From the IMG/VR virus record IMGVR_UViG_3300024520_000260, positions 1-35,048 of that record: 35,048 nt of DNA; one strand, 5' to 3'. This stretch comes from a virus. A program made the position numbers and the translations under genes. Each line of letters opens with the position of its first letter. Position 1 is the first letter of the stretch. Below the pieces are notes generated by a model, which was given only the letters and a program-made list of their open reading frames with translations, had not been told where the DNA came from and ran no database searches. Positions 12,513-22,317 of the stretch are shown piece by piece.

Positions 12513-13781
12513 ATGTTAAGAAAATTTACCATTAATTCAAAGTCAACCGGCAAATACGAGAAAAAGATTGTTAATTCTCGTGAGTGTATTGTAACCAGTA
12601 TGGTTTCAATCGTTGGTGATTCAGTAATGAATCGTTTAGGCTATCCATTTGCGCAAGTTGTTAATTCTTATAAGCAACTTGATAACTTACACGCACCTGC
12701 GGGACACCCCAGTGTAGGCGGCACTAACGTATCAGCGTTTCTACCATCGGCCGTTAATGCATTCGGTGTGGGTGGGTCTGTATCTAATCCTCGTCTTGAC
12801 GGTCGTCGTGTTATCAATGATCTGGTATTTGATATTGAAGCTGCAAACAAGGATGAACGCGGTAAAGAAATCATCCAACGTATTGAAAACGGTGAAAAAA
12901 TTGGTGTCAGCACTGGTTTAAATGCTGATGTCAGTGAAGAATCTGGCATGATGGATGGTGAACAATACACAGGGCTAGTGAGCAATATACAGTTTGATCA
13001 TGTTGCTGTTTTATTGACAGAAACACCTGCAGGCAAAGAAACCTTCACTGTAAACAGCGATGAATTGATGATCTGTAACGTTGCTGAATCAGTGCGAGAA
13101 TTAGAAGACAAGGTCTGGTCTGCAGTAAAAGAGAAATTTGGCGAAAATGCATATCCTTCTGAAATCCTGTTAAATCCTGATCAAATTGTAGTCAGAATAG
13201 ATGAAGCTTTGCTTTTAGTCAGTTTTGGCTATAATGAAGCTCAGAATATTGTTTTTACTGGTGAACCTGTACCAGTAGAGAAAAAAGTAACTTTTGAAAA
13301 AATATCTAACAACGAGGCCGATGATATGGACCAGCTAAAATTTATACTTGCGTTGATTGCAAATGCAACCAATTCGCTTACTGCAGTCGATCAGGATAAA
13401 CTAATGGCGATGTCTGAAACTGGGCTCGCATCGTTTCTGTCAAATCTTGCAGAACTGACCATTGAACAAGCCACCGCATACGTGACTAATGCAGGATTCT
13501 TTGTTAATTCGATCAGTCCTGAGGATTATCAAGCGTATCTTGATAACCAGGCAGGTTATGAAGCGTATCAGTTGCAGCTAGCAAATGAACGCGAATCGAT
13601 GACAAATGCTCTCGTTGAAAAATCGAAAATGTCTAAAGAACAACTTGACGCATTGCCGATTGAAACACTTAAAAGCATTGCAAACGAGATTGCACCTGAT
13701 CAAAATTATGGTTTGCAGGGTGCTCAAGTCACTAATGCAACTCCCGGTTCATCCACTCTGAAACTCTGCGAGGGTTCCTAA
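12513..13781 (+). CDS. Prohead protease fused to scaffold (DUF2213-like)
   Basis: A 422-aa protein. The N-terminal 200 residues match DUF2213-type prohead proteases: 'LHAPAGHPSVGG' (H65), 'NGEKIGVSTGL' with probable nucleophile S133, and 'VSNIQFDHVAVLL' with H163, the expected His/Ser layout. A low-complexity acidic linker follows, then a helical Gln/Ala/Glu-rich C-terminus (about 270-400) typical of an internal scaffold. It should nucleate the prohead, then digest scaffold and itself before packaging. It lies just before the decoration and capsid genes, the standard order. An internal start producing scaffold alone is possible at the methionine near residue 272 (MDQLKF). Confidence 0.8.
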   Translation: MLRKFTINSKSTGKYEKKIVNSRECIVTSMVSIVGDSVMNRLGYPFAQVVNSYKQLDNLHAPAGHPSVGGTNVSAFLPSAVNAFGVGGSVSNPRLDGRRVINDLVFDIEAANKDERGKEIIQRIENGEKIGVSTGLNADVSEESGMMDGEQYTGLVSNIQFDHVAVLLTETPAGKETFTVNSDELMICNVAESVRELEDKVWSAVKEKFGENAYPSEILLNPDQIVVRIDEALLLVSFGYNEAQNIVFTGEPVPVEKKVTFEKISNNEADDMDQLKFILALIANATNSLTAVDQDKLMAMSETGLASFLSNLAELTIEQATAYVTNAGFFVNSISPEDYQAYLDNQAGYEAYQLQLANERESMTNALVEKSKMSKEQLDALPIETLKSIANEIAPDQNYGLQGAQVTNATPGSSTLKLCEGS

Positions 13782-13783
13782 TC

Positions 13784-14224
13784 ATGACTGCCTCAGCTAT
13801 TTTTGTTACACCTGAACAACCTGGCACACGTGCCGAAGCGCTCGCGGGTGCTGCCGGTATTTTACCCGGTGATCTATTAATTCAATCTGGTGTCGATGTC
13901 GTTGTGAATGCAACTGCAGAAGATGTACCGGTCGCAGCGTTGTTTGCTGATATCAGTACTGGCGGTGCGGGGCGACTTGACACCGCTTATCTTGACAATG
14001 AAACTGTTAACTATGCCGCTGCTCAAAAAGGCGCATTAGTTACCGCACGGTTTGCAGTGGGTATTACACTTGCACACGGTGCAGAAGTTGCCAGTGCAGG
14101 CGATGGCAGCCTGAAAGCGCCAGCGGTTGCGGGTGTTGGTGTGTTGGGTTATGTTCAGGAAGTTGTTACAGCAGGTGTCGGTGCTAGTTCTGGTACTGGT
14201 TTTGGCGTTATTCGAATCCTATAA
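13784..14224 (+). CDS. Head decoration/stabilising protein candidate
   Basis: A 146-aa Ala/Gly/Val-rich, strand-rich protein with 'EQPGTRAEALAGAAGILPGDLLIQSG', 'KGALVTARFAVGITLAHGAEV' and 'GDGSLKAPAVAGVGVLGYVQEV'. Proteins of this build between protease/scaffold and major capsid genes are trimeric decoration proteins or DUF2190-like capsid accessories. The 'LPGDLL', 'A-x-GAEV' and 'VLGYV' pattern fits that group. SD GAGGG lies about 10 bases before the ATG. Assignment rests on order and composition, with moderate family support. Confidence 0.65.
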   Translation: MTASAIFVTPEQPGTRAEALAGAAGILPGDLLIQSGVDVVVNATAEDVPVAALFADISTGGAGRLDTAYLDNETVNYAAAQKGALVTARFAVGITLAHGAEVASAGDGSLKAPAVAGVGVLGYVQEVVTAGVGASSGTGFGVIRIL

Positions 14225-14236
14225 GGGTAATTAATT

Positions 14237-15265
14237 ATGAAAGGTTCAATTTTAGGACAAGGTCGAAGCTACGCGCAATTAGGCCGATATACACTTGATG
14301 AAGTGCGTGCAGCCGGTTGGGCTGAAAAACTTATTGATAATCAAGATGGTGCAATGCTTGGCAATGCTGCAGGTACACTCCACTATGATGATCATCGGCG
14401 AATGATGGATGATGTAACAATGGTCCGTCAGTACGAAGATTCAGTCTATGATATCCTCGTTGCTGCACCTGGTATTGCTCAGAATGTTTCTCTGTTTGAA
14501 ACAATGATCGGTGATCAGGACATGAATGATTTTTCCGGTCAAGTGTCCATGAATGTCAGTGACCGTCAAAGTCAACAGACTGATTATGCATTCAACTGGA
14601 CACCACAGCCTATTTATCACTGTGATTTTCATATTCCATGGCGTCAAACTGGTTTCGGCTATAAGCCCGGTGACGGTGCAAGTGCTGCAACTATCGCGGT
14701 CAACCTGGTACGTGATCAAACTTTGATTCTTGGTAACGCTTCTATAGCTGTTAATGCCAATGGCGCGGTTTCAACGCTCACAGGGTTGACCAATGCAGCC
14801 GGTACACTGGCACAAGCCGCATCAATGACTGATTGGTCATTAGTTGCAAACGTTGCTAGCGTATATCCCGAAGCGGTGGCACACATGCAAACAATGTTTA
14901 CCACAGATCGTGCAGCACAGACACCCAACAGTGTTTTAATGCTGGTTGCTAATGATATTTGGCCCGCTCTTGAGTTTGTCAATAACGCAGGTAATAGCGA
15001 GCGTACTAACCTTGAACGGTTAAAAGCAATGTCTGCAATCAAAGATGTGAAACCCTGTCAATGGTTAGTCGATGGTGCAGTGCTCTACATTGAAATCACA
15101 CCATCTAGTGTTCGCATTCCTCGATCTGCAGAAACAACTATCGCGCCTTGGTTGCGCACAGAACGTTTCGAAGATTCGAAGTTTACTGTATTTAGCGCGA
15201 GCACTAATAAGGTGTTGCAGGACCGTAACGGCAGATCGGGTGTGAGTTATTGCACCAAAGCATAA
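14237..15265 (+). CDS. Major capsid protein
   Basis: A 342-aa protein directly after protease/scaffold and decoration genes and followed by an intrinsic terminator, as expected for the most abundant head protein. It has an N-terminal helical arm (residues 1-60), 'YEDSVYDILVAAPGIAQNVSLFETMIGDQDM' (E-loop-like region), 'FNWTPQPIYHCDFHIPWRQTGFG', a central A-domain-like part with 'NLVRDQTLILGNA' and a C-terminal 'SVRIPRSAETTIAPWLRTERFED'. This resembles HK97-fold capsids of the DUF2184-like group. AAGGG precedes the ATG by about 10 bases. Confidence 0.82.
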   Translation: MKGSILGQGRSYAQLGRYTLDEVRAAGWAEKLIDNQDGAMLGNAAGTLHYDDHRRMMDDVTMVRQYEDSVYDILVAAPGIAQNVSLFETMIGDQDMNDFSGQVSMNVSDRQSQQTDYAFNWTPQPIYHCDFHIPWRQTGFGYKPGDGASAATIAVNLVRDQTLILGNASIAVNANGAVSTLTGLTNAAGTLAQAASMTDWSLVANVASVYPEAVAHMQTMFTTDRAAQTPNSVLMLVANDIWPALEFVNNAGNSERTNLERLKAMSAIKDVKPCQWLVDGAVLYIEITPSSVRIPRSAETTIAPWLRTERFEDSKFTVFSASTNKVLQDRNGRSGVSYCTKA

Positions 15266-15291
15266 TTGATAATTTCAGGTAGTATCATTCG

Positions 15292-15319
15292 CGCAGTGCT
15301 TTTATAGCGCTGCGTTTTT
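15292..15319 (+). terminator. Intrinsic terminator after the capsid gene
   Basis: CGCAGTGCT (15292-15300) pairs with AGCGCTGCG (15306-15314), with one G-T pair, around a 5-base loop, followed by five T then ATTT. It lies 27 bases past the capsid stop inside the late operon. It could be partly read through, so that capsid and upstream genes are made in greater amount than connector and tail genes, or protect the 3' end of capsid mRNA. Confidence 0.75.
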
Positions 15320-15346
15320 ATTTCTGACTAATGAAAGGTTAATACG

Positions 15347-15550
15347 ATGGCTGACAAAATGGTGAAGCGAGTTATTCAACGCGGTAGAATGGCAATAGGC
15401 ACAGGCCCTAATAAAAAGGTCTATGGTCCCGGTGAAGAAAATGGTAACGTGGTTGAATTGTCTGAAGCCAATGCAAAGATTTTCGAGCACATGCTACGTC
15501 CAGTTTTAAAAGGTTCCAATTCGAAGACTGAAGTACCACAGGCTAAGTAA
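15347..15550 (+). CDS. Small unknown protein after capsid
   Basis: A 67-aa basic protein: 'MVKRVIQRGRMAIGTGPNKKVYGPGEENGNVVELSEANAKIFEHML'. The pattern 'Y-GPGE-V-LS-A-A' is common in tiny phage proteins encoded between capsid and connector genes, whose role is usually unknown. It is the first gene after the intrinsic terminator and ends exactly where the next gene starts. No further assignment is supported. Confidence 0.65.
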   Translation: MADKMVKRVIQRGRMAIGTGPNKKVYGPGEENGNVVELSEANAKIFEHMLRPVLKGSNSKTEVPQAK

Positions 15551-15961
15551 ATGACTATCTGTTCACCTCGTACCGACTCGGACAGCGTTGAAACTATCAG
15601 CGGGACTACACTGGGTAGTGGTGTTATCGACATGTTTATACAGTCTGCAACGCTGGTAATTGACAGTATTGCAACGTGTGCAAGTAATTATGGTGTCACT
15701 GATGAACAATTGAGCCTGGCAGAATGTTGGTTAACGGCTCACATGATATCAATCAGTGATGTGGGGCAGGCTAACGGAACCGGTGTGAAAAAGTCTGAAA
15801 CCTTTGAAAATTATAAGGTTGAGTACGCTGTTAGTGCCAGCACCGGGCAAGGTGTTTTGTCCACAGGATATGGTAGGACAGCTAATTCATTGACCAAAGG
15901 TTGCTTGGCAGAAGTCGATAAAAGACAGGCCAAGGTTGGTTTTTGTGGCGGTGCAGGTTAA
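15551..15961 (+). CDS. Head-tail connector (head completion adaptor-like)
   Basis: A 136-aa protein with a helix-rich start ('GSGVIDMFIQSATLVIDSIATCASNYGVTDEQLSLAECWLTAHMI'), a 'KSETFENYKVEYAVSASTGQGVLSTGYG' middle and a short end. This is the layout of DUF4054/gp15-type adaptors that sit under the portal: helical bundle, then a loop with 'S.kvG.~sv~y'. It starts directly after the 67-aa gene and its stop overlaps the next start (TAATG). Position between capsid and tail genes supports the call. Confidence 0.7.
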   Translation: MTICSPRTDSDSVETISGTTLGSGVIDMFIQSATLVIDSIATCASNYGVTDEQLSLAECWLTAHMISISDVGQANGTGVKKSETFENYKVEYAVSASTGQGVLSTGYGRTANSLTKGCLAEVDKRQAKVGFCGGAG

Positions 15962-16272
15962 TGTTTCCACTGCCTGACCGTATCACAGTATGGAATGTTG
16001 CGGGCAATGACGGTGCAGGCGGTTTAACGTATTCTGCACCGGTTCAGTACGATGCTCGGATTGCATACAAGCAAGAAAAATTCACTGATAAAAACGGTGA
16101 TCAGTTGATGTCGGTGGCAGTATGTTACAGTCCAGGTGTAGAGATGCTGATTGATTCACAAGTATTGTTTAGTGAATCCGTTGACGCGAGTCCACCGGCT
16201 GCAGCAAATGATGTGCGAGCGTTGTCAGCAACACCAAGCGGTACAGATTTAAAAAAAGCGTGGTTTGCGTAA
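15961..16272 (+). CDS. Head-tail joining protein (stopper-like)
   Basis: A 103-aa protein starting MFPLPDRITVWN at ATG 15961, which overlaps the previous stop; an upstream TTG (15943) is less likely. It is beta-rich: 'DRITVWNVAGNDGAGGLTYSAPVQYDARIAYKQEKFTDKNGDQLMSVAVCYSP'. This matches the shape of phage head-tail joining/stopper proteins (small beta-barrel, 'R.~~~~~~~~~~dG~~~~s~a~~y~~'). It closes the connector after packaging. Its stop overlaps the next ATG (TAATG). Confidence 0.7.
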   Translation: MFPLPDRITVWNVAGNDGAGGLTYSAPVQYDARIAYKQEKFTDKNGDQLMSVAVCYSPGVEMLIDSQVLFSESVDASPPAAANDVRALSATPSGTDLKKAWFA

Positions 16273-16673
16273 TGGCTAAGAATATGAAGATTACTGGTGA
16301 AAAAGAAATTGCTAAGAATCTCGGCAAAGCTATTGCAGGTATTGAGGGTGACATTAGCAAAGGTTTAAAAGCAGCCGGTTTATTTATACTAGCAAAAGCG
16401 GTTCCGCTAACACCTAAAGAATTTGGCAACCTGAGAAATTCAACATATGAAAGTACATCTATTGGCTTGAATGGTCCTAAAATGACAGTAGGCTATACTC
16501 AAGAGTATGCACCACACGTGCACGAGATGCCAATGGTAAACCCCGGTAAACCTCGATCAGGTGATCGAAAGGGTACATATTGGGAGTCAGGTGAAAACAA
16601 GTTTTTAGAAAAAGCGGTTGTAAGAAATGTTACCGCTATTTTAAATGTCATTAAGAAGCGTGCAAAACGATGA
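16272..16673 (+). CDS. HK97 gp10-like tail completion protein
   Basis: A 133-aa protein starting MAKNMKITGEKEIAKNLGKAI at ATG 16272. It has the HK97-gp10 pattern: an N-terminal strand and helix with 'KEIAKNLGKAIAGIEGDISKGLKAAGLFILAKAVPLTPKEFGNLRNS', a strand 'KMTVGYTQEYAPHVHEMP' and a C-terminal 'FLEKAV...ILNVIKKRAKR'. These proteins act at the head-tail junction or in tail termination. It is translationally linked on both sides (TAATG and an ATGA-type overlap). Confidence 0.8.
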   Translation: MAKNMKITGEKEIAKNLGKAIAGIEGDISKGLKAAGLFILAKAVPLTPKEFGNLRNSTYESTSIGLNGPKMTVGYTQEYAPHVHEMPMVNPGKPRSGDRKGTYWESGENKFLEKAVVRNVTAILNVIKKRAKR

Positions 16674-17068
16674 GTAATGCACCCTCGTTTGATATCATGA
16701 CATTGTTGGGTGCTAATGGTTTCGGCACGATAGGCACAGATTTATTTTGCTTGATGTGGAATCCAGGCACAGACAAACAAACGTTGGTAATGGACTCAGA
16801 AGGTTTTGACACAGAACAAAAGGACCAGTATGAGCAACCTGGTTTTCAGATTTTAGTAAGAGGTGACAAAAGAGAATCACCGAAAATTGTACATGATCGA
16901 GCTAGGCTGATATGGTTGTTTATAAAGGATTCAAGCGATTCAGTAACAATCAATAGTGTTGAGTATCTTGGTTTTGAGCTGTCCGGTAATATGGTTACAC
17001 TGGGTAAAGATGAAAACGAACGGTTTACTTATAGTATGAATTTTTTTACTTATCGAAACCCTGAATAG
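16670..17068 (+). CDS. Tail terminator-like minor protein
   Basis: A 132-aa alpha/beta protein: 'SFDIMTLLGANGFGTIGTDLFCLMWNPG', 'PGFQILVRGDKRESPKIVHDRARLIWLFIKDSSD' and 'YLGFELSGNMVTLGKDENERFTYSMNFFTYRNPE'. The two final strands, the 'Q.~vRg' strand and its place just before the tail tube gene match the 'minor capsid protein'/tail terminator family that caps the tail tube and limits its length. Overlaps the gp10-like gene by 4 bases. Confidence 0.75.
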   Translation: MSNAPSFDIMTLLGANGFGTIGTDLFCLMWNPGTDKQTLVMDSEGFDTEQKDQYEQPGFQILVRGDKRESPKIVHDRARLIWLFIKDSSDSVTINSVEYLGFELSGNMVTLGKDENERFTYSMNFFTYRNPE

Positions 17069-17079
17069 GAGCGTAGAAC

Positions 17080-17502
17080 ATGTCGAATAATTTGAAGGGT
17101 CGCACGTTATTGCTGGAAATTTTTGATAGCGGTGTATGGAAAAAAATAGGAGGTGTCAAGACTAAATCAAATAGCCGTGATAATCCGGTTGCAGACGCCA
17201 CAAGCTCAAGCACACCTGGTTCCAGTAATGAAACTGAAGCGTGTTTCACCGGTTTTGCTACTGAGACAATTGAAGCAAGCGGTATCCCTGATACACGGTC
17301 AGGTGCAGCATTGCTTGCATATAAAGTGCTTGCAAGCTTGGCTCATAATGCCGTGCCAGTTGCTACACTTCGATTCAGCAACGCACTTGAACAGATTTCA
17401 GGTGACTGGATTATCACTAATTGGGAATCGTCTGGCGAAGAAACTGATTTAGTAGCTTTCAGTTGTTCTTTCCAGAATGAGGGTGAACTGAGCTATAGCT
17501 AA
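17080..17502 (+). CDS. Major tail tube protein
   Basis: A 140-aa protein of the small tail tube type: 'KGRTLLLEIFDSGVWKKIGGVKTKSNSRDN' (opening strands with the G-x-R-x-x-x 'K.~s~~' loop), 'CFTGFATETIEASGIPDTRSGAALLAYKVLASLAHNAV' (helix and linking region) and 'GDWIITNWESSGEETDLVAFSCSFQNEGELSYS' (final strands with the typical 'vts~~~~~~~~~~~~~s~tl~~~G~i'). It polymerises as hexamer rings around the tape measure. It is followed at once by the triplicated cassette, whose products may decorate this tube. Confidence 0.85.
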   Translation: MSNNLKGRTLLLEIFDSGVWKKIGGVKTKSNSRDNPVADATSSSTPGSSNETEACFTGFATETIEASGIPDTRSGAALLAYKVLASLAHNAVPVATLRFSNALEQISGDWIITNWESSGEETDLVAFSCSFQNEGELSYS

Positions 17503-17512
17503 TAGGAGGTGA

Positions 17513-17872
17513 ATGATGGCACATTTGCCGATTCAGAAAGTGTTTGTGTCTGCTACTATACTCGGTGCAGGCATGGTTGCAGCTAGCGCAGGTGGTGATA
17601 CATTTGACAGTCATGAGGGTGTGTTCGTCCATGCATTGAACGAAAGTGGTGGCGACATCACTATCACGATTGAAGCAGTAGACCTTGAGATACCTACAAG
17701 CGAGGGCGGTAGTAGGTCAGTAGTTGACATGGTTGTCACTGTACCTATCGCAGTTGTTGAAGGTGTATTTTTCCAAGTACCTCCTGCATATATTTCAGGT
17801 GGTGTCGTTTCAATGGTGTACTCAAGTGTAACTGATATTACAGTGGGTATATTCGAGGTGAAGCATGACTAA
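17513..17872 (+). CDS. Tail-region paralog A1 (cassette copy 1)
   Basis: A 119-aa beta-rich protein starting MAHLPIQKVFVSATIL. Key blocks are 'SAGGDTFDSHEGVFVHALNESGGDITITIEAVD', 'VTVPIAVVEGVFFQVPPAYISGGVVSMVYSSVTDITVGIFEV'. The GDTFD...G.FVH..N..G..ITITI core followed by 'F.VPPAY' and 'G.V.M.YSS' recalls small phage proteins with a 'GD.F.n.G.tfl.vkN' pattern. It has AGGAGGTG as SD and overlaps the next gene by 8 bases. It is three residues shorter than A2 and A3. Probably a tail or head decoration subunit. Confidence 0.75.
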   Translation: MMAHLPIQKVFVSATILGAGMVAASAGGDTFDSHEGVFVHALNESGGDITITIEAVDLEIPTSEGGSRSVVDMVVTVPIAVVEGVFFQVPPAYISGGVVSMVYSSVTDITVGIFEVKHD

Positions 17873-18233
17873 ATTAGCACATCAAATAGTTAGCCAAACC
17901 GATCAAGTAGTTACAATGGTTTCTGCAAGTGCGAGCGGTGATACTTTTGATAATATTCCAGGTACATTTGTCTATATTGAAAACGGTGATGCATTTATAA
18001 GAACTATCACCATTGAACCTTCAGAATCGTCAATTTCAGGCAATAAATCAGGCGGAATGCTTGTGGCAGATATTGATTTAGACGTACCGGCTTTTTCTGG
18101 TGGAGTAAGAGGTAAGTTATTATTTGCAGTACCTTCAATATATCAGAATGCAAAGGGTGTGGTCGAAATGACATACAGCGATGAAAGTGGTCTGATTGTC
18201 GGTGTTGCACGTGTTGACCAAAATCAGTTATAA
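17865..18233 (+). CDS. Tail-region paralog B1 (cassette copy 1)
   Basis: A 122-aa beta-rich protein starting MTKLAHQIVSQTDQVV. Its core 'ASASGDTFDNIPGTFVYIENGDAFIRTITIEP' aligns with the A-type core, and 'LLFAVPSIYQNAKGVVEMTYSDESGLIVGVARV' aligns with the A-type 'VPPAY...G.V.M.YSS' end, so A and B are related. B differs by a hydrophilic 'SGNKSG' loop and the ending 'VARVDQNQL'. Start overlaps A1; SD GAGGTGA is inside the end of A1. Confidence 0.75.
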   Translation: MTKLAHQIVSQTDQVVTMVSASASGDTFDNIPGTFVYIENGDAFIRTITIEPSESSISGNKSGGMLVADIDLDVPAFSGGVRGKLLFAVPSIYQNAKGVVEMTYSDESGLIVGVARVDQNQL

Positions 18234-18246
18234 CGGAGGGTGAATT

Positions 18247-18615
18247 ATGGCACATTTGCCAATTAATAAAGTTGAGCGTGCTAGCCTAGACTTGCAAATG
18301 AATTCTATATTACTGAATGCCGCAAGTGCAGGTGGTGATACATTTAACAGCCATGAGGGTGTGTTTGTTCGCGCAGTCAATGATAGTGGTGGAAACATCA
18401 CTATCACCATTGCAGCGGTGGACACACTTATCCCTACCAGTGACGCTGGTGCGAGATCAGTCAACGATATGACTGTTGTGGTGCCTACTGCAACCAGCAA
18501 CGGCATATATTTTGAAGTGCCCCCTGCATTCATTGGTTTAGGTGGCATAGTCACAATGACTTACAGCACTGAAGTTGGTTTATTCTTGACTGTAATGGAG
18601 GTGAACCATGACTAA
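18247..18615 (+). CDS. Tail-region paralog A2 (cassette copy 2)
   Basis: A 122-aa protein with the same start (MAHLPINKV) and core as A1: 'SAGGDTFNSHEGVFVRAVNDSGGNITITIAAVDTLIPTSDAGARSVNDMTVVVP', then 'YFEVPPAFIGLGGIVTMTYSTEVGLFLTVMEV'. The stretch after MAHLPINKV (ERASLDLQMNSIL) differs strongly from A1 and A3, whereas the GDTF and VPPA blocks stay constant, which indicates a fixed fold with a variable N-terminal segment. SD is GGAGGG 8-9 bases upstream. Confidence 0.75.
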   Translation: MAHLPINKVERASLDLQMNSILLNAASAGGDTFNSHEGVFVRAVNDSGGNITITIAAVDTLIPTSDAGARSVNDMTVVVPTATSNGIYFEVPPAFIGLGGIVTMTYSTEVGLFLTVMEVNHD

Positions 18616-18976
18616 ACTAGTGTATCAGTATATAAGTCAAACTAACATTGCACTAACAATGGCCAATGCTGCCTCCAGTGGGGATACATTTGATAATTTA
18701 CCTAAAACATTTGTTCATGTTGAAAATTCAAATGTTGCAAACAGAACAATTACTGTTAAGCCGCGAATTGATGAAAGTGCAGGTAATAAATCAGGTGTAA
18801 TTCCACTAGTGGATTTAACTATTGTGGTTGACGCCTCGTCCGGTGGTGATCCAGGGTTAAGGGTGTTTTCAATACCACCCGCATATCAAAGTGCAAAAGG
18901 TGTTGTTAAAATGACTTACAGTGATAGCAGTGGGTTAACAGTGGCGGTTGCTCGTGTCAATAGACAGCAGTTATAA
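18608..18976 (+). CDS. Tail-region paralog B2 (cassette copy 2)
   Basis: A 122-aa B-type protein: 'MTKLVYQYISQTNIALTMANAASSGDTFDNLPKTFVHVENSNVANRTITVKP', then 'GNKSGVIPLVDLTIVVD', and 'FSIPPAYQSAKGVVKMTYSDSSGLTVAVARVNRQQL'. It keeps the B-specific GNKSG loop and QQL ending. Basic residues (KPRIDES) replace the acidic/polar ones of B1 at the same place, so surface charge differs between copies. Overlaps A2 by 8 bases. Confidence 0.75.
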   Translation: MTKLVYQYISQTNIALTMANAASSGDTFDNLPKTFVHVENSNVANRTITVKPRIDESAGNKSGVIPLVDLTIVVDASSGGDPGLRVFSIPPAYQSAKGVVKMTYSDSSGLTVAVARVNRQQL

Positions 18977-18989
18977 CGGAGGGTGAGTT

Positions 18990-19358
18990 ATGGCACATTT
19001 GCCAATTAATAAAGTTACATCAGGTGCAGGTGTATCGGGTAATCCGTTAGTAGCTGGCATGGTGTCGGCTGAATCAAGCGGTGATACGTTTGACAGTCAC
19101 GAGGGTGTGTATGCACATGCTGAAAATGATGGTGGGGCTGACATCACTATCACGATTAAACCTATTGCTGTTGACATTCCAACGAGTGAGGCACAGCGAA
19201 GAGTCATCGCTGATATGACCGTAGTTGTACCTTATACATCAGATGTAGGTGTATTTTTCGAAGTACCCCCCGCATACATAAGCGGTGGAAAAGTAAAAAT
19301 GAAATATTCAAGTGTAACTGGTTTAACAATCGGTGTATTTGAGGTGACTAATGACTAA
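18990..19358 (+). CDS. Tail-region paralog A3 (cassette copy 3)
   Basis: A 122-aa A-type protein: 'MAHLPINKVTSGAGVSGNPLVAGMVSAESSGDTFDSHEGVYAHAENDGGADITITIKP', then 'ADMTVVVPYTSDVGVFFEVPPAYISGGKVKMKYSSVTGLTIGVFEV'. Its ending is closest to A1 (PPAYISGG, YSSVT), while its start and SD are closest to A2 (MAHLPINKV, GGAGGGTGA). This mosaic is consistent with recombination or gene conversion between copies. Confidence 0.75.
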   Translation: MAHLPINKVTSGAGVSGNPLVAGMVSAESSGDTFDSHEGVYAHAENDGGADITITIKPIAVDIPTSEAQRRVIADMTVVVPYTSDVGVFFEVPPAYISGGKVKMKYSSVTGLTIGVFEVTND

Positions 19359-19719
19359 GTTTACACATCAACATGTCAGTCAAGAAAACAATACGTTATC
19401 AGGTCAAGCGGCTACACCTAGTGATACATTCGATAATGTACCGGGAACGTTTGTCTATGTTCAAAATGCAGATACACTTGCGACTAGAACGATTACAATT
19501 AGCGCACAGACTACACCGATTACCGGCAACGAATCAGGTGCAATATCACTGCCTGATTTGACAGTAGTTGTTCCCATGGCAGTAGGAAGTGAAACAGGTA
19601 AGCATATGTTTTCTGTGCCACCTGCCTATCAAAATTTAGCAGGTGTAGTCACCATGGGTTATGATGATGAAACAGACCTTGTGGTAGGTGTTGCACGTGT
19701 TGACAGGCAGCAATTATAA
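19351..19719 (+). CDS. Tail-region paralog B3 (cassette copy 3)
   Basis: A 122-aa B-type protein: 'MTKFTHQHVSQENNTLSGQAATPSDTFDNVPGTFVYVQNADTLATRTITISAQ', 'GNESGAISLPDLTVVVP', 'FSVPPAYQNLAGVVTMGYDDETDLVVGVARVDRQQL'. It is the last cassette gene and ends directly against the tail chaperone gene (TAA then ATG with no gap). The conserved glycine before DTF is replaced by proline-serine (TPSDTF), the only copy to do so. Confidence 0.75.
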   Translation: MTKFTHQHVSQENNTLSGQAATPSDTFDNVPGTFVYVQNADTLATRTITISAQTTPITGNESGAISLPDLTVVVPMAVGSETGKHMFSVPPAYQNLAGVVTMGYDDETDLVVGVARVDRQQL

Positions 19720-20223
19720 ATGAAAAGTAAATTACAAGGCTATGAAGAGGTTGACAGCGAAGGTTTAATTTATATTTTCCGGTCAAACTTTCAATTCATT
19801 ATGGCATTAAATGAAGTATCCGAATTTGACGCTATAGAAATAGCTGAAAAAGTGAATACATATGACCCTGAATGTATACGCGATGTATTGATTGCATCAC
19901 TGCATTGTCGCGATGGTGTTGGTACTAATGAAATCAGCATGGAAGATAAAAAATCTATTATTGAGGATTTTATCACACTACACGGGTTACAAGAATGTTG
20001 TATTCTGGCACAAAGTTTGATAACGCATTCAATGATTGGTAGCCTTAAAAAAAAACAAATCGAAGAGAACCAGACAGTATCAGGGATGATAAACGGGTTG
20101 CTATTTTCCCCGTGGCAGAATTTAAAAAATCATGCATTGCTATGGGCGTATGTATCGATGATTTTTATAGCCTTACAATGTACGACTACCAAGATATATC
20201 CGCTGCTCACTGCATTAAATTAG
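19720..20223 (+). CDS. Tail assembly chaperone, upstream frame
   Basis: A 167-aa protein placed between tail tube genes and the tape measure, the usual place of the G/GT-type chaperone pair. Residues 1 to about 112 look like a real helical domain ('LIYIFRSNFQFIMALNEVSEFDAIEIAEKVNTYDPECIRDVLIASLHCRDG'). Past the A9 run (codons 110-112) the zero frame carries on for 55 residues, but its last 30 or so (LLWAYVSMIFIALQCTTTK) look less protein-like, while the overlapping -1 frame holds the next gene. As in other siphoviruses, a fraction of ribosomes probably shifts to make a longer chaperone. It follows B3 with no gap and no clear SD of its own. Confidence 0.7.
   Translation: MKSKLQGYEEVDSEGLIYIFRSNFQFIMALNEVSEFDAIEIAEKVNTYDPECIRDVLIASLHCRDGVGTNEISMEDKKSIIEDFITLHGLQECCILAQSLITHSMIGSLKKKQIEENQTVSGMINGLLFSPWQNLKNHALLWAYVSMIFIALQCTTTKIYPLLTALN
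20047..20055 (+). promoter_or_regulatory. Candidate -1 ribosomal frameshift site (A9 run)
   Basis: Nine A bases are read in the chaperone frame as AAA AAA AAA before CAA. A -1 slip on the second and third AAA gives full re-pairing of both tRNAs. The -1 frame is open from 20049 (its last stop is TAA at 20046-20048) to 20306. The product would be about 195 aa. The same pattern could also reflect a homopolymer sequencing error. Slippage further on, at TTTTCCCC (20104-20111), is possible but pairs less well. Confidence 0.5.
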
Positions 20224-20307: not shown

Positions 20308-22317
20308 ATGGCGTTAAAATTAGGCACGTTGTTTTATGAATTCGGCGCAAACACTTCTAAGCTGAAAAAAGCACAGAAAGAAGTAATCACCACTAATAAA
20401 AAAGTTTCTAACAGTTTTAGCAGTTTAGGCACTGTTATTGCTGGCGTGTTAAGCATTGAAACTGCCCGACGTGTGTTAATGATTGCAGATGGTATGACTC
20501 GTTTGAAAGGTCGTATTGATACACTGACGAAAAGTCAAAAAGAATCATCCAGGGTATTCAATGAATTAGTTGCTACTGCCAATGAACTTGGAATAGAACT
20601 TAATGGTGTGGTATCCGCGTTTCAACGTTTTGCACTGGTTAAAGATATCGTAGGTGCTAGCAATGCGCAAACGTTGCAGTTCACTGAGAATATTCAAAAG
20701 CTCGGCATTGTTTCCGGTGCCACCGGGCAAGAAATTACAAGTACTTCTATCCAGATCGGGCAAGCGCTCGCTAATAACTTCGAAGCTGCAGCACAGGAAA
20801 TAAACTCAATCAATGAGCAGATGCCGGAAGTGGCGCGAGCGGTTGAACGGAGTTTAAAACTGCAAGCTGGCAGTTTCAAAAAAGCGGTGACATCAGGCAA
20901 AGTGACATCAGAACAATTTTTTAATGCTATCCTGCAACAGACTGATTTGATCAATGAAAAATTTGCTAAATTGCCGGTAACTATTGAACGTGCAACGGCA
21001 ATGCTTGCCACTAATTTTGCAGTAGCGTTGACTGAAGCTGACGACATTCTTGGTACTACACAAGCTATAGCTGAAAGCTTGCAAGGTGGCGCAAAGATCA
21101 TAGCCACTGATTTTAGTGATGTGTTGATACACCTTCGAACAGGGTTTATACAGTTATTCGGTGAACTTGATAAAGGTATGATTAATTTCCAAAAATCAAC
21201 CCGTGGTTTTGTCGTTAACTTAGGTTTAGCCATTCAAAATGTCTTAGGGTTGCAAACAGCCGGTAGCTTGAAACGACTTGCCGAAATAGAAAATGAACGC
21301 AAAGCAGAATTACAAGGTGCAAAAGATGCTACAGCCGGTTTACTTGCTGAATTAGAAAAACGTAGAATAGCAAGAGCTGCAGCACGCAAAAAAGCAGACG
21401 ATGAGCGCAATACACCTGTGATTGCCCGGTTAGATAATGAAGCAAACAAAGTCGAGGGTCTTAAAGGTGGTACAGGTGATGTTGAAAACAAAGCACTTGA
21501 TTCTATCGTCAAATCAATGGCAAGTGAGACACAGGCTATTGAATTAGCCTTACTTGATCGTGAAAGTAAAATATTAAAACTTGAGGGTATTACAGAGGCC
21601 AAACGATTCGAGCTACTTACACAGTCTGCAGCTATACGTAATAAACAAATAGCGGAATTAGAAGCGGCAAACCAGCAAGCAGCATTTACCGCTGCGCAGA
21701 ATTTCGGTAACACATTAAATAGTGCCATGCGTGCAACCGGCAAAGAAGGTACTGCAATAGCCAAAACAATATTCCTAGCAAATAAAGCTGTTTATGTAGC
21801 AAGTATTATTGCAGCAACACAAGCGGCTGCAGCAAATGCATCAGTTACTGCATCCGTTGCTGGTCCACTGGGTTATTTTACAACCAAAGCGGGTATACTC
21901 ACAAGTGGTTACGCAAGTGCTGCAGCGGTAGCGGGTATGGCCGTTGGTAGCGTTGCTGGCGGTCGTCAGTCAGGCGGTCGCGTATTCCCCGGTGCAATGC
22001 ATCCGATTAATGAAAACGGTGATCCTGAACTATTACAGCAAGGTGCACGGCAGTTTCTGCTACCTGGTAACAAATCTGGTAATGTAACCGCGTTGAAAGA
22101 CGGTGCAACCGGTGGCGCACCTAAAATTGTGATCAATAACAATGCAGCCGGTGTTGATGTTGATGTGGTGAGCATCACCCGTGATGAAGTGCAAATTATG
22201 ATCAATCAAGGTAATAAAGCAACCGAAAACAAAATCAATGCCGGTTTAGCACGCGGTCAAGGTCCTACATCACGAGCGCTGAGATCAGGTTTTGATACAC
22301 AAAGGAATTTAGGCTAA
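20308..22317 (+). CDS. Tape measure protein
   Basis: A 669-aa protein with the N-terminal tape measure domain (tape_meas_nterm type): 'MLIMADGMTRLKGRIDTLTKSQKESSRVFNELVATANELG'-like region from about residue 50, then 'VVSAFQRF', 'GATGQEITSTSIQIGQALANN', 'SINEQMPEVARAVERSL'. The middle is charged and coiled-coil-like (RKAELQGAKDATAGLLAELEKRRIARAAARKKADDE). A hydrophobic Ala/Gly-rich stretch near 485-560 could cross the host membrane during DNA entry. At about 1.5 angstrom per residue the tail would be near 100 nm. No peptidase motif is seen inside it. Confidence 0.9.
   Translation: MALKLGTLFYEFGANTSKLKKAQKEVITTNKKVSNSFSSLGTVIAGVLSIETARRVLMIADGMTRLKGRIDTLTKSQKESSRVFNELVATANELGIELNGVVSAFQRFALVKDIVGASNAQTLQFTENIQKLGIVSGATGQEITSTSIQIGQALANNFEAAAQEINSINEQMPEVARAVERSLKLQAGSFKKAVTSGKVTSEQFFNAILQQTDLINEKFAKLPVTIERATAMLATNFAVALTEADDILGTTQAIAESLQGGAKIIATDFSDVLIHLRTGFIQLFGELDKGMINFQKSTRGFVVNLGLAIQNVLGLQTAGSLKRLAEIENERKAELQGAKDATAGLLAELEKRRIARAAARKKADDERNTPVIARLDNEANKVEGLKGGTGDVENKALDSIVKSMASETQAIELALLDRESKILKLEGITEAKRFELLTQSAAIRNKQIAELEAANQQAAFTAAQNFGNTLNSAMRATGKEGTAIAKTIFLANKAVYVASIIAATQAAAANASVTASVAGPLGYFTTKAGILTSGYASAAAVAGMAVGSVAGGRQSGGRVFPGAMHPINENGDPELLQQGARQFLLPGNKSGNVTALKDGATGGAPKIVINNNAAGVDVDVVSITRDEVQIMINQGNKATENKINAGLARGQGPTSRALRSGFDTQRNLG

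Follow-up and report, generated by a model that had tools for sequence, protein, structure and literature searches.

Six diverged tandem copies of a small tail-module protein family in a virus genome, and a possible role on the outside of the tail

The stretch of DNA analyzed here (hereafter the window) comprises positions 1 to 35,048 of the IMG/VR virus record IMGVR_UViG_3300024520_000260. ORF calling identified six intact genes arranged head to tail on the plus strand at 17513-19719, where two gene types, A and B, alternate in the order A-B-A-B-A-B. The first of them, A1 (17513-17872), encodes a protein of 119 amino acids, or of 118 if translation begins at a second ATG at 17516. Each of the other five encodes 122 amino acids: B1 at 17865-18233, A2 at 18247-18615, B2 at 18608-18976, A3 at 18990-19358 and B3 at 19351-19719. 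The B starts (17865, 18608 and 19351) are exactly 743 nt apart, as are the starts of A2 and A3, and A1, counted from 17516, begins 731 nt before A2. The end of every A gene overlaps the start of the B gene behind it by 8 nt (ATGACTAA), and 13 nt containing a GGAGGGTGA site separate B1 from A2 and B2 from A3. An earlier sequence-only reading of this DNA had described the fixed B spacing and the conserved overlaps, and both are evident in the ORF coordinates. B2 alone is basic (pI about 9.1), and the remaining copies have acidic pI values of 4.3-4.7.

The six genes carry some of the strongest start signals in the window. The energies of the duplexes between their Shine-Dalgarno (SD) sites and the 3' end of the 16S rRNA are -9.9 to -14.5 kcal/mol, whereas 19 further genes of the window have a median of -5.1 kcal/mol (Mann-Whitney p 4e-4), and only the portal gene (-11.4 kcal/mol) falls in the same range. 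Together with the six open frames, this agrees with the proposal that starts, SD sites and lengths (119-122 amino acids) have been held across the copies. Given that the strong SD sites are found in all six genes, we predict that the proteins are abundant, and decay of the copies is argued against. The fixed overlap of each A gene with the following B gene suggests coupled translation, which may result in matched amounts of A and B.

Amino acid identity is 50-61% among the A proteins, 50-53% among the B proteins and 29-38% between the two types. In a blastp comparison within a set of 15 sequences, A1 and B3 match with an E value of about 1e-16, and all six proteins match a family profile with E values of 1e-46 to 1e-50 (4e-49 for A1), although this profile was built from sequences that include these same six. 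The level of similarity is far above chance, and the blastp and profile comparisons agree with the suggestion that A and B are themselves related. The motifs on which that suggestion was partly based, a GDTFD core and a VPPAY/YSS end, are recognizable but not invariant: the core reads GDTFN in A2 and SDTFD in B3, and the end reads VPSIY in B1 and VPPAF in A2, with YSD or YDD rather than YSS in the B proteins. A search of the whole record with the family profile for a seventh copy returned only these six.

A separate contig (L007) is identical to window positions 13018-19550 over 6,533 nt and holds all six members, the last of which is cut by the contig end. Given that this contig carries all six, and that the copies are too divergent for reads to be mis-joined, the array is not an assembly artefact, and the observation of six genes is confirmed. 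Within B3, at window positions 19551-19659, L007 and the window differ at nine sites in 109 nt, mostly silently. This break may mean either that recombination between strains has occurred within the last copy or that the contig end is chimeric.

The copies appear to be old. Synonymous divergence between them is about 1 or saturated and pairwise dN/dS is about 0.14-0.42, which points to old duplications with each copy under purifying constraint. None of the six frames contains a stop codon; with the strong SD sites, this speaks for retention of the copies, for which decay had been named as the condition to check. It was also proposed that the divergence of the copies implies selection for diversity, but the dN/dS values indicate purifying selection overall and do not bear this out. 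In the phylogenetic tree the three A proteins form one clade (support 100/99) and the three B proteins another (99/99). Thus, the A/B pair predates the multiplication of the pair, as had been suggested. When the A/B split was placed before versus after the divergence from two related contigs described below (L008 and L010), the AU test favored neither order (p 0.20-0.36). Recent gene conversion between the copies was also considered, but no case for it was found: the A genes show a clustering of shared sites over all positions (p 0.001) that is absent from third positions, and the B copies show no clustering of shared sites.

The array lies within a tail module, between tail tube and chaperone genes as the sequence-only reading had placed it. 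Upstream are genes for a tail terminator (16670-17068, plus strand; Pfam Phage_tail_terminator_6, E 1.4e-10) and the major tail (tube) protein (MTP; 17080-17502, plus strand), a 140-amino-acid protein that matches Phage_tail_2 over residues 6-138 (E 4.6e-9) and phrog_1407 (E 1.3e-15). The tube protein consists of a single domain and has no Ig-like extension. Downstream, the plus-strand gene at 19720-20223, with a -1-frame extension to 20306, probably encodes a tail assembly chaperone, judged from its position and reading frames; searched against Pfam and PHROG, it matches no family above threshold. Within this gene, nine consecutive A residues occupy 20047-20055, and the -1 frame is open from there to 20306, so a G/GT-type programmed frameshift is likely. 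L010 also has an overlapping -1 ORF, and orthologues of the chaperone gene are present in L008 and L010. The tape measure protein (TMP) is encoded next on the same strand, at 20308-22317 (669 amino acids; Pfam TMP_3, E 1.2e-39).

Five of the six proteins match phrog_16194, a family labelled "tail protein". The E values are 2.5e-4 for A1, 9e-7 for B1, 4e-5 for A2, 8.5e-7 for B2 and 3.8e-6 for A3; B3 alone lacks a match, and it is 50-51% identical to B1 and B2. The label comes from annotation rather than experiment and does not specify the function further. Members of the family are 107-122 amino acids long and occur in the Rhodococcus phages Shagrat (gp15) and REQ1 (gp72), the Streptomyces phages phiSASD1 (gp31), Chymera (gp13) and Yara (gp17), and the environmental phage ctuI7215. 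These phages were reached by using the L008 and L010 proteins as bridging queries, and a tblastn search of phages with A3 and B1 returned nothing useful. A profile built from the window, L008 and L010 members recovers one member in each of these distant phages, with E values of 4e-5 to 1e-14. Thus, the family was already on record, and the new part is its amplification: it is normally single-copy, and in the virus of the window it has been amplified six-fold into two subfamilies.

When viral contigs were scanned with A, B, A plus B, tail tube, TMP and chaperone queries, the close family appeared only in L007, L008 (IMGVR_UViG_3300023220_000415) and L010 (IMGVR_UViG_3300023284_000379), and TMP profiles run against bacterial genomes turned up no relative. 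L008 and L010 share with the window the order MTP, family, chaperone/TMP, and their tube and tape measure proteins are 56-61% (61% in L008) and 46-57% (57% in L010) identical to those of the window. They differ from it in copy number. The comparison of cassette number in relatives that had been called for gives one copy in L008 and two in L010, and apart from L007, which has six, every other phage searched that has the family carries one. In L008, and not in the window, a small ORF (1740-2036) lies between the tail tube and family genes; its product has an N-terminal membrane segment, a coiled coil and a weak spanin-like match.

The family gene adjoins the MTP gene in the window, L008, L010, Chymera, Yara and ctuI7215, and is one gene away from it in Shagrat and REQ1. 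The order in ctuI7215 (MTP, family, TAC_11, TMP) is that of the window; in Shagrat, REQ1, Chymera and Yara the family gene lies between the terminator and MTP genes. The exception is phiSASD1, where it lies among head-tail connector genes, three genes upstream of MTP. In ctuI7215, the gene annotated "phage tail tube protein" (MW202777.1, 33361-33702; L018 5388-5729) matches the chaperone family Phage_TAC_11. The true tube gene of this phage (L018 4574-4987), labelled "putative secreted protein", matches Phage_tail_2 (E 2.7e-42) and directly precedes the family member.

AlphaFold2 models of single chains, computed with nine-sequence alignments, predict a jelly-roll-like beta-sandwich of about eight main strands for both A1 (pLDDT 87, pTM 0.78) and B3 (pLDDT 84, pTM 0.76). 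Positional entropy is higher in predicted loops than in strands (1.37 versus 1.00, p 0.006), as would be expected if the fold is conserved and its surface varies. Among solved structures, Foldseek against the PDB gave no significant match (best E 0.05, TM about 0.3). The weak, non-significant matches are to jelly-roll folds such as TNF/C1q-like proteins, carbohydrate-binding modules and viral coat proteins, and also include the KHP40 cement protein and the phage 7-7-1 decoration protein. Sequence searches of solved structures gave chance-level matches only. Uncharacterized predicted phage proteins of 113-119 amino acids match at TM 0.54-0.72 with E values below 0.001.

The family lies close to the tail-tube gene in phages whose hosts differ widely, which supports a role in the tail, and a tail location of the A and B proteins is likely. 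More specifically, we suspect, tentatively and at somewhat less than an even chance, that the six proteins occur in large numbers as surface subunits of the tail, most likely on the outer side of the tube. Tail tubes often have outer decoration domains, which are often Ig-like (PMC13243795), and domains of this kind on the tube and capsid of the mycobacteriophage Douge bind glycans of the host (PMC13033339). The likeness that we propose to the Ig-like tube domains of lambda, T5 and Douge is that of a surface domain repeated along the tube. In those phages, however, the domain is fused to the tube protein, whereas in the window the genes are separate; the A and B models are jelly-roll-like rather than clearly Ig, and no sequence similarity to such domains was found. 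A literature search for a tail decoration family returned only the LSH1 paper, in which the tail-tube decoration is a fused domain (PMC13243795), and for members of phrog_16194 it returned no virion proteomics or structure.

In this scenario, an old tandem amplification of one small beta-sandwich family in a siphophage tail module would have supplied proteins that assemble on the tail, most likely on the exterior of the tube. There they could stand in for the domain, separately folded and often Ig-like, that is fused to the tube in other phages, so that a minimal single-domain tube of 140 amino acids would receive its outer domain from separate genes. In all phages found with the family the MTP is similarly short (137-144 amino acids) and has no fused outer domain. 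However, it is common for tail-tube proteins to be short and to lack an Ig domain, and therefore the co-occurrence of a short MTP with the family is only suggestive. The overlapping A and B genes and their strong SD sites would provide the matched amounts suited to A-B pairing, and the two proteins are perhaps paired. In the least certain step, several diverged versions could give the tail a mosaic surface, either for stability or for weak attachment to more than one surface sugar.

The sequence-only reading had left both tail tube and capsid as sites of decoration. The tail-associated placement of the genes supports the first, and the second is disfavored by a separate head-decoration gene at 13784-14224 (plus strand; phrog_766, E 3.5e-6) beside the capsid genes of the window. 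If the proteins did decorate or cement the capsid, their position next to the tail tube would be incidental. We consider this unlikely, although capsid decoration and cement proteins (lambda gpD type, KHP40 cement, phage 7-7-1 gp002) are likewise small, beta-rich and accessory, two of them are among the weak Foldseek matches, and the phiSASD1 gene sits among connector genes. None of these proteins gives a significant sequence or fold match to A or B, which also have no match to Pfam and PHROG head-decoration families, and the A and B genes lie in the tail module. The family tracks MTP in nearly all relatives, and Chymera has a cementing protein in addition to its family member. The coexistence of the two in Chymera, along with the separate head-decoration gene in the window, makes a head role less likely.

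The frequent placement of family genes between terminator and MTP, or among connectors, would also suit a neck, collar, whisker or low-copy minor tail part, such as one located at the tail's terminator end. This is fairly improbable, given that the strong SD sites in all six copies suggest large amounts, and that a neck has few subunits and no obvious need for six paralogues. There is a slimmer chance that the proteins are absent from the virion and help tail assembly as chaperones for the tube or tape measure. The array does adjoin the tail assembly chaperone genes, but a probable G/GT-type chaperone pair is already present downstream, and tail chaperones are largely helical, unlike the all-beta sandwich predicted here. 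It is very improbable that tandem duplication left the extra copies as neutral remnants heading for loss: copy number does vary among relatives, but at near-saturated dS, neutral decay would by our estimate have left many stops, in place of the constrained, stop-free frames and strong start signals observed.

Returning to the coating of the tail by abundant surface subunits, we see a small chance of a more elaborate arrangement, in which the three A/B pairs would form a heteromeric sleeve with the six subunits in defined places around the tube or along it, and with a multi-specific, lectin-like surface. Pseudo-hexameric rings on the hexameric tube would be one example, and a repertoire encoded in separate genes would then replace a single repeated decoration domain.

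From the perspective of the family, these analyses connect an unnamed group of proteins, whose phages infect unrelated hosts, with a natural series of copy numbers (one, two and six) within one tail-module lineage, and this series makes the role of the family testable. It also raises the question of why a single virus would keep six versions of a tail accessory protein that are both old and different from one another. Should several of these versions coat the tail, this would be a case in which gene amplification broadens the surface contacts of a phage away from the tail tip.
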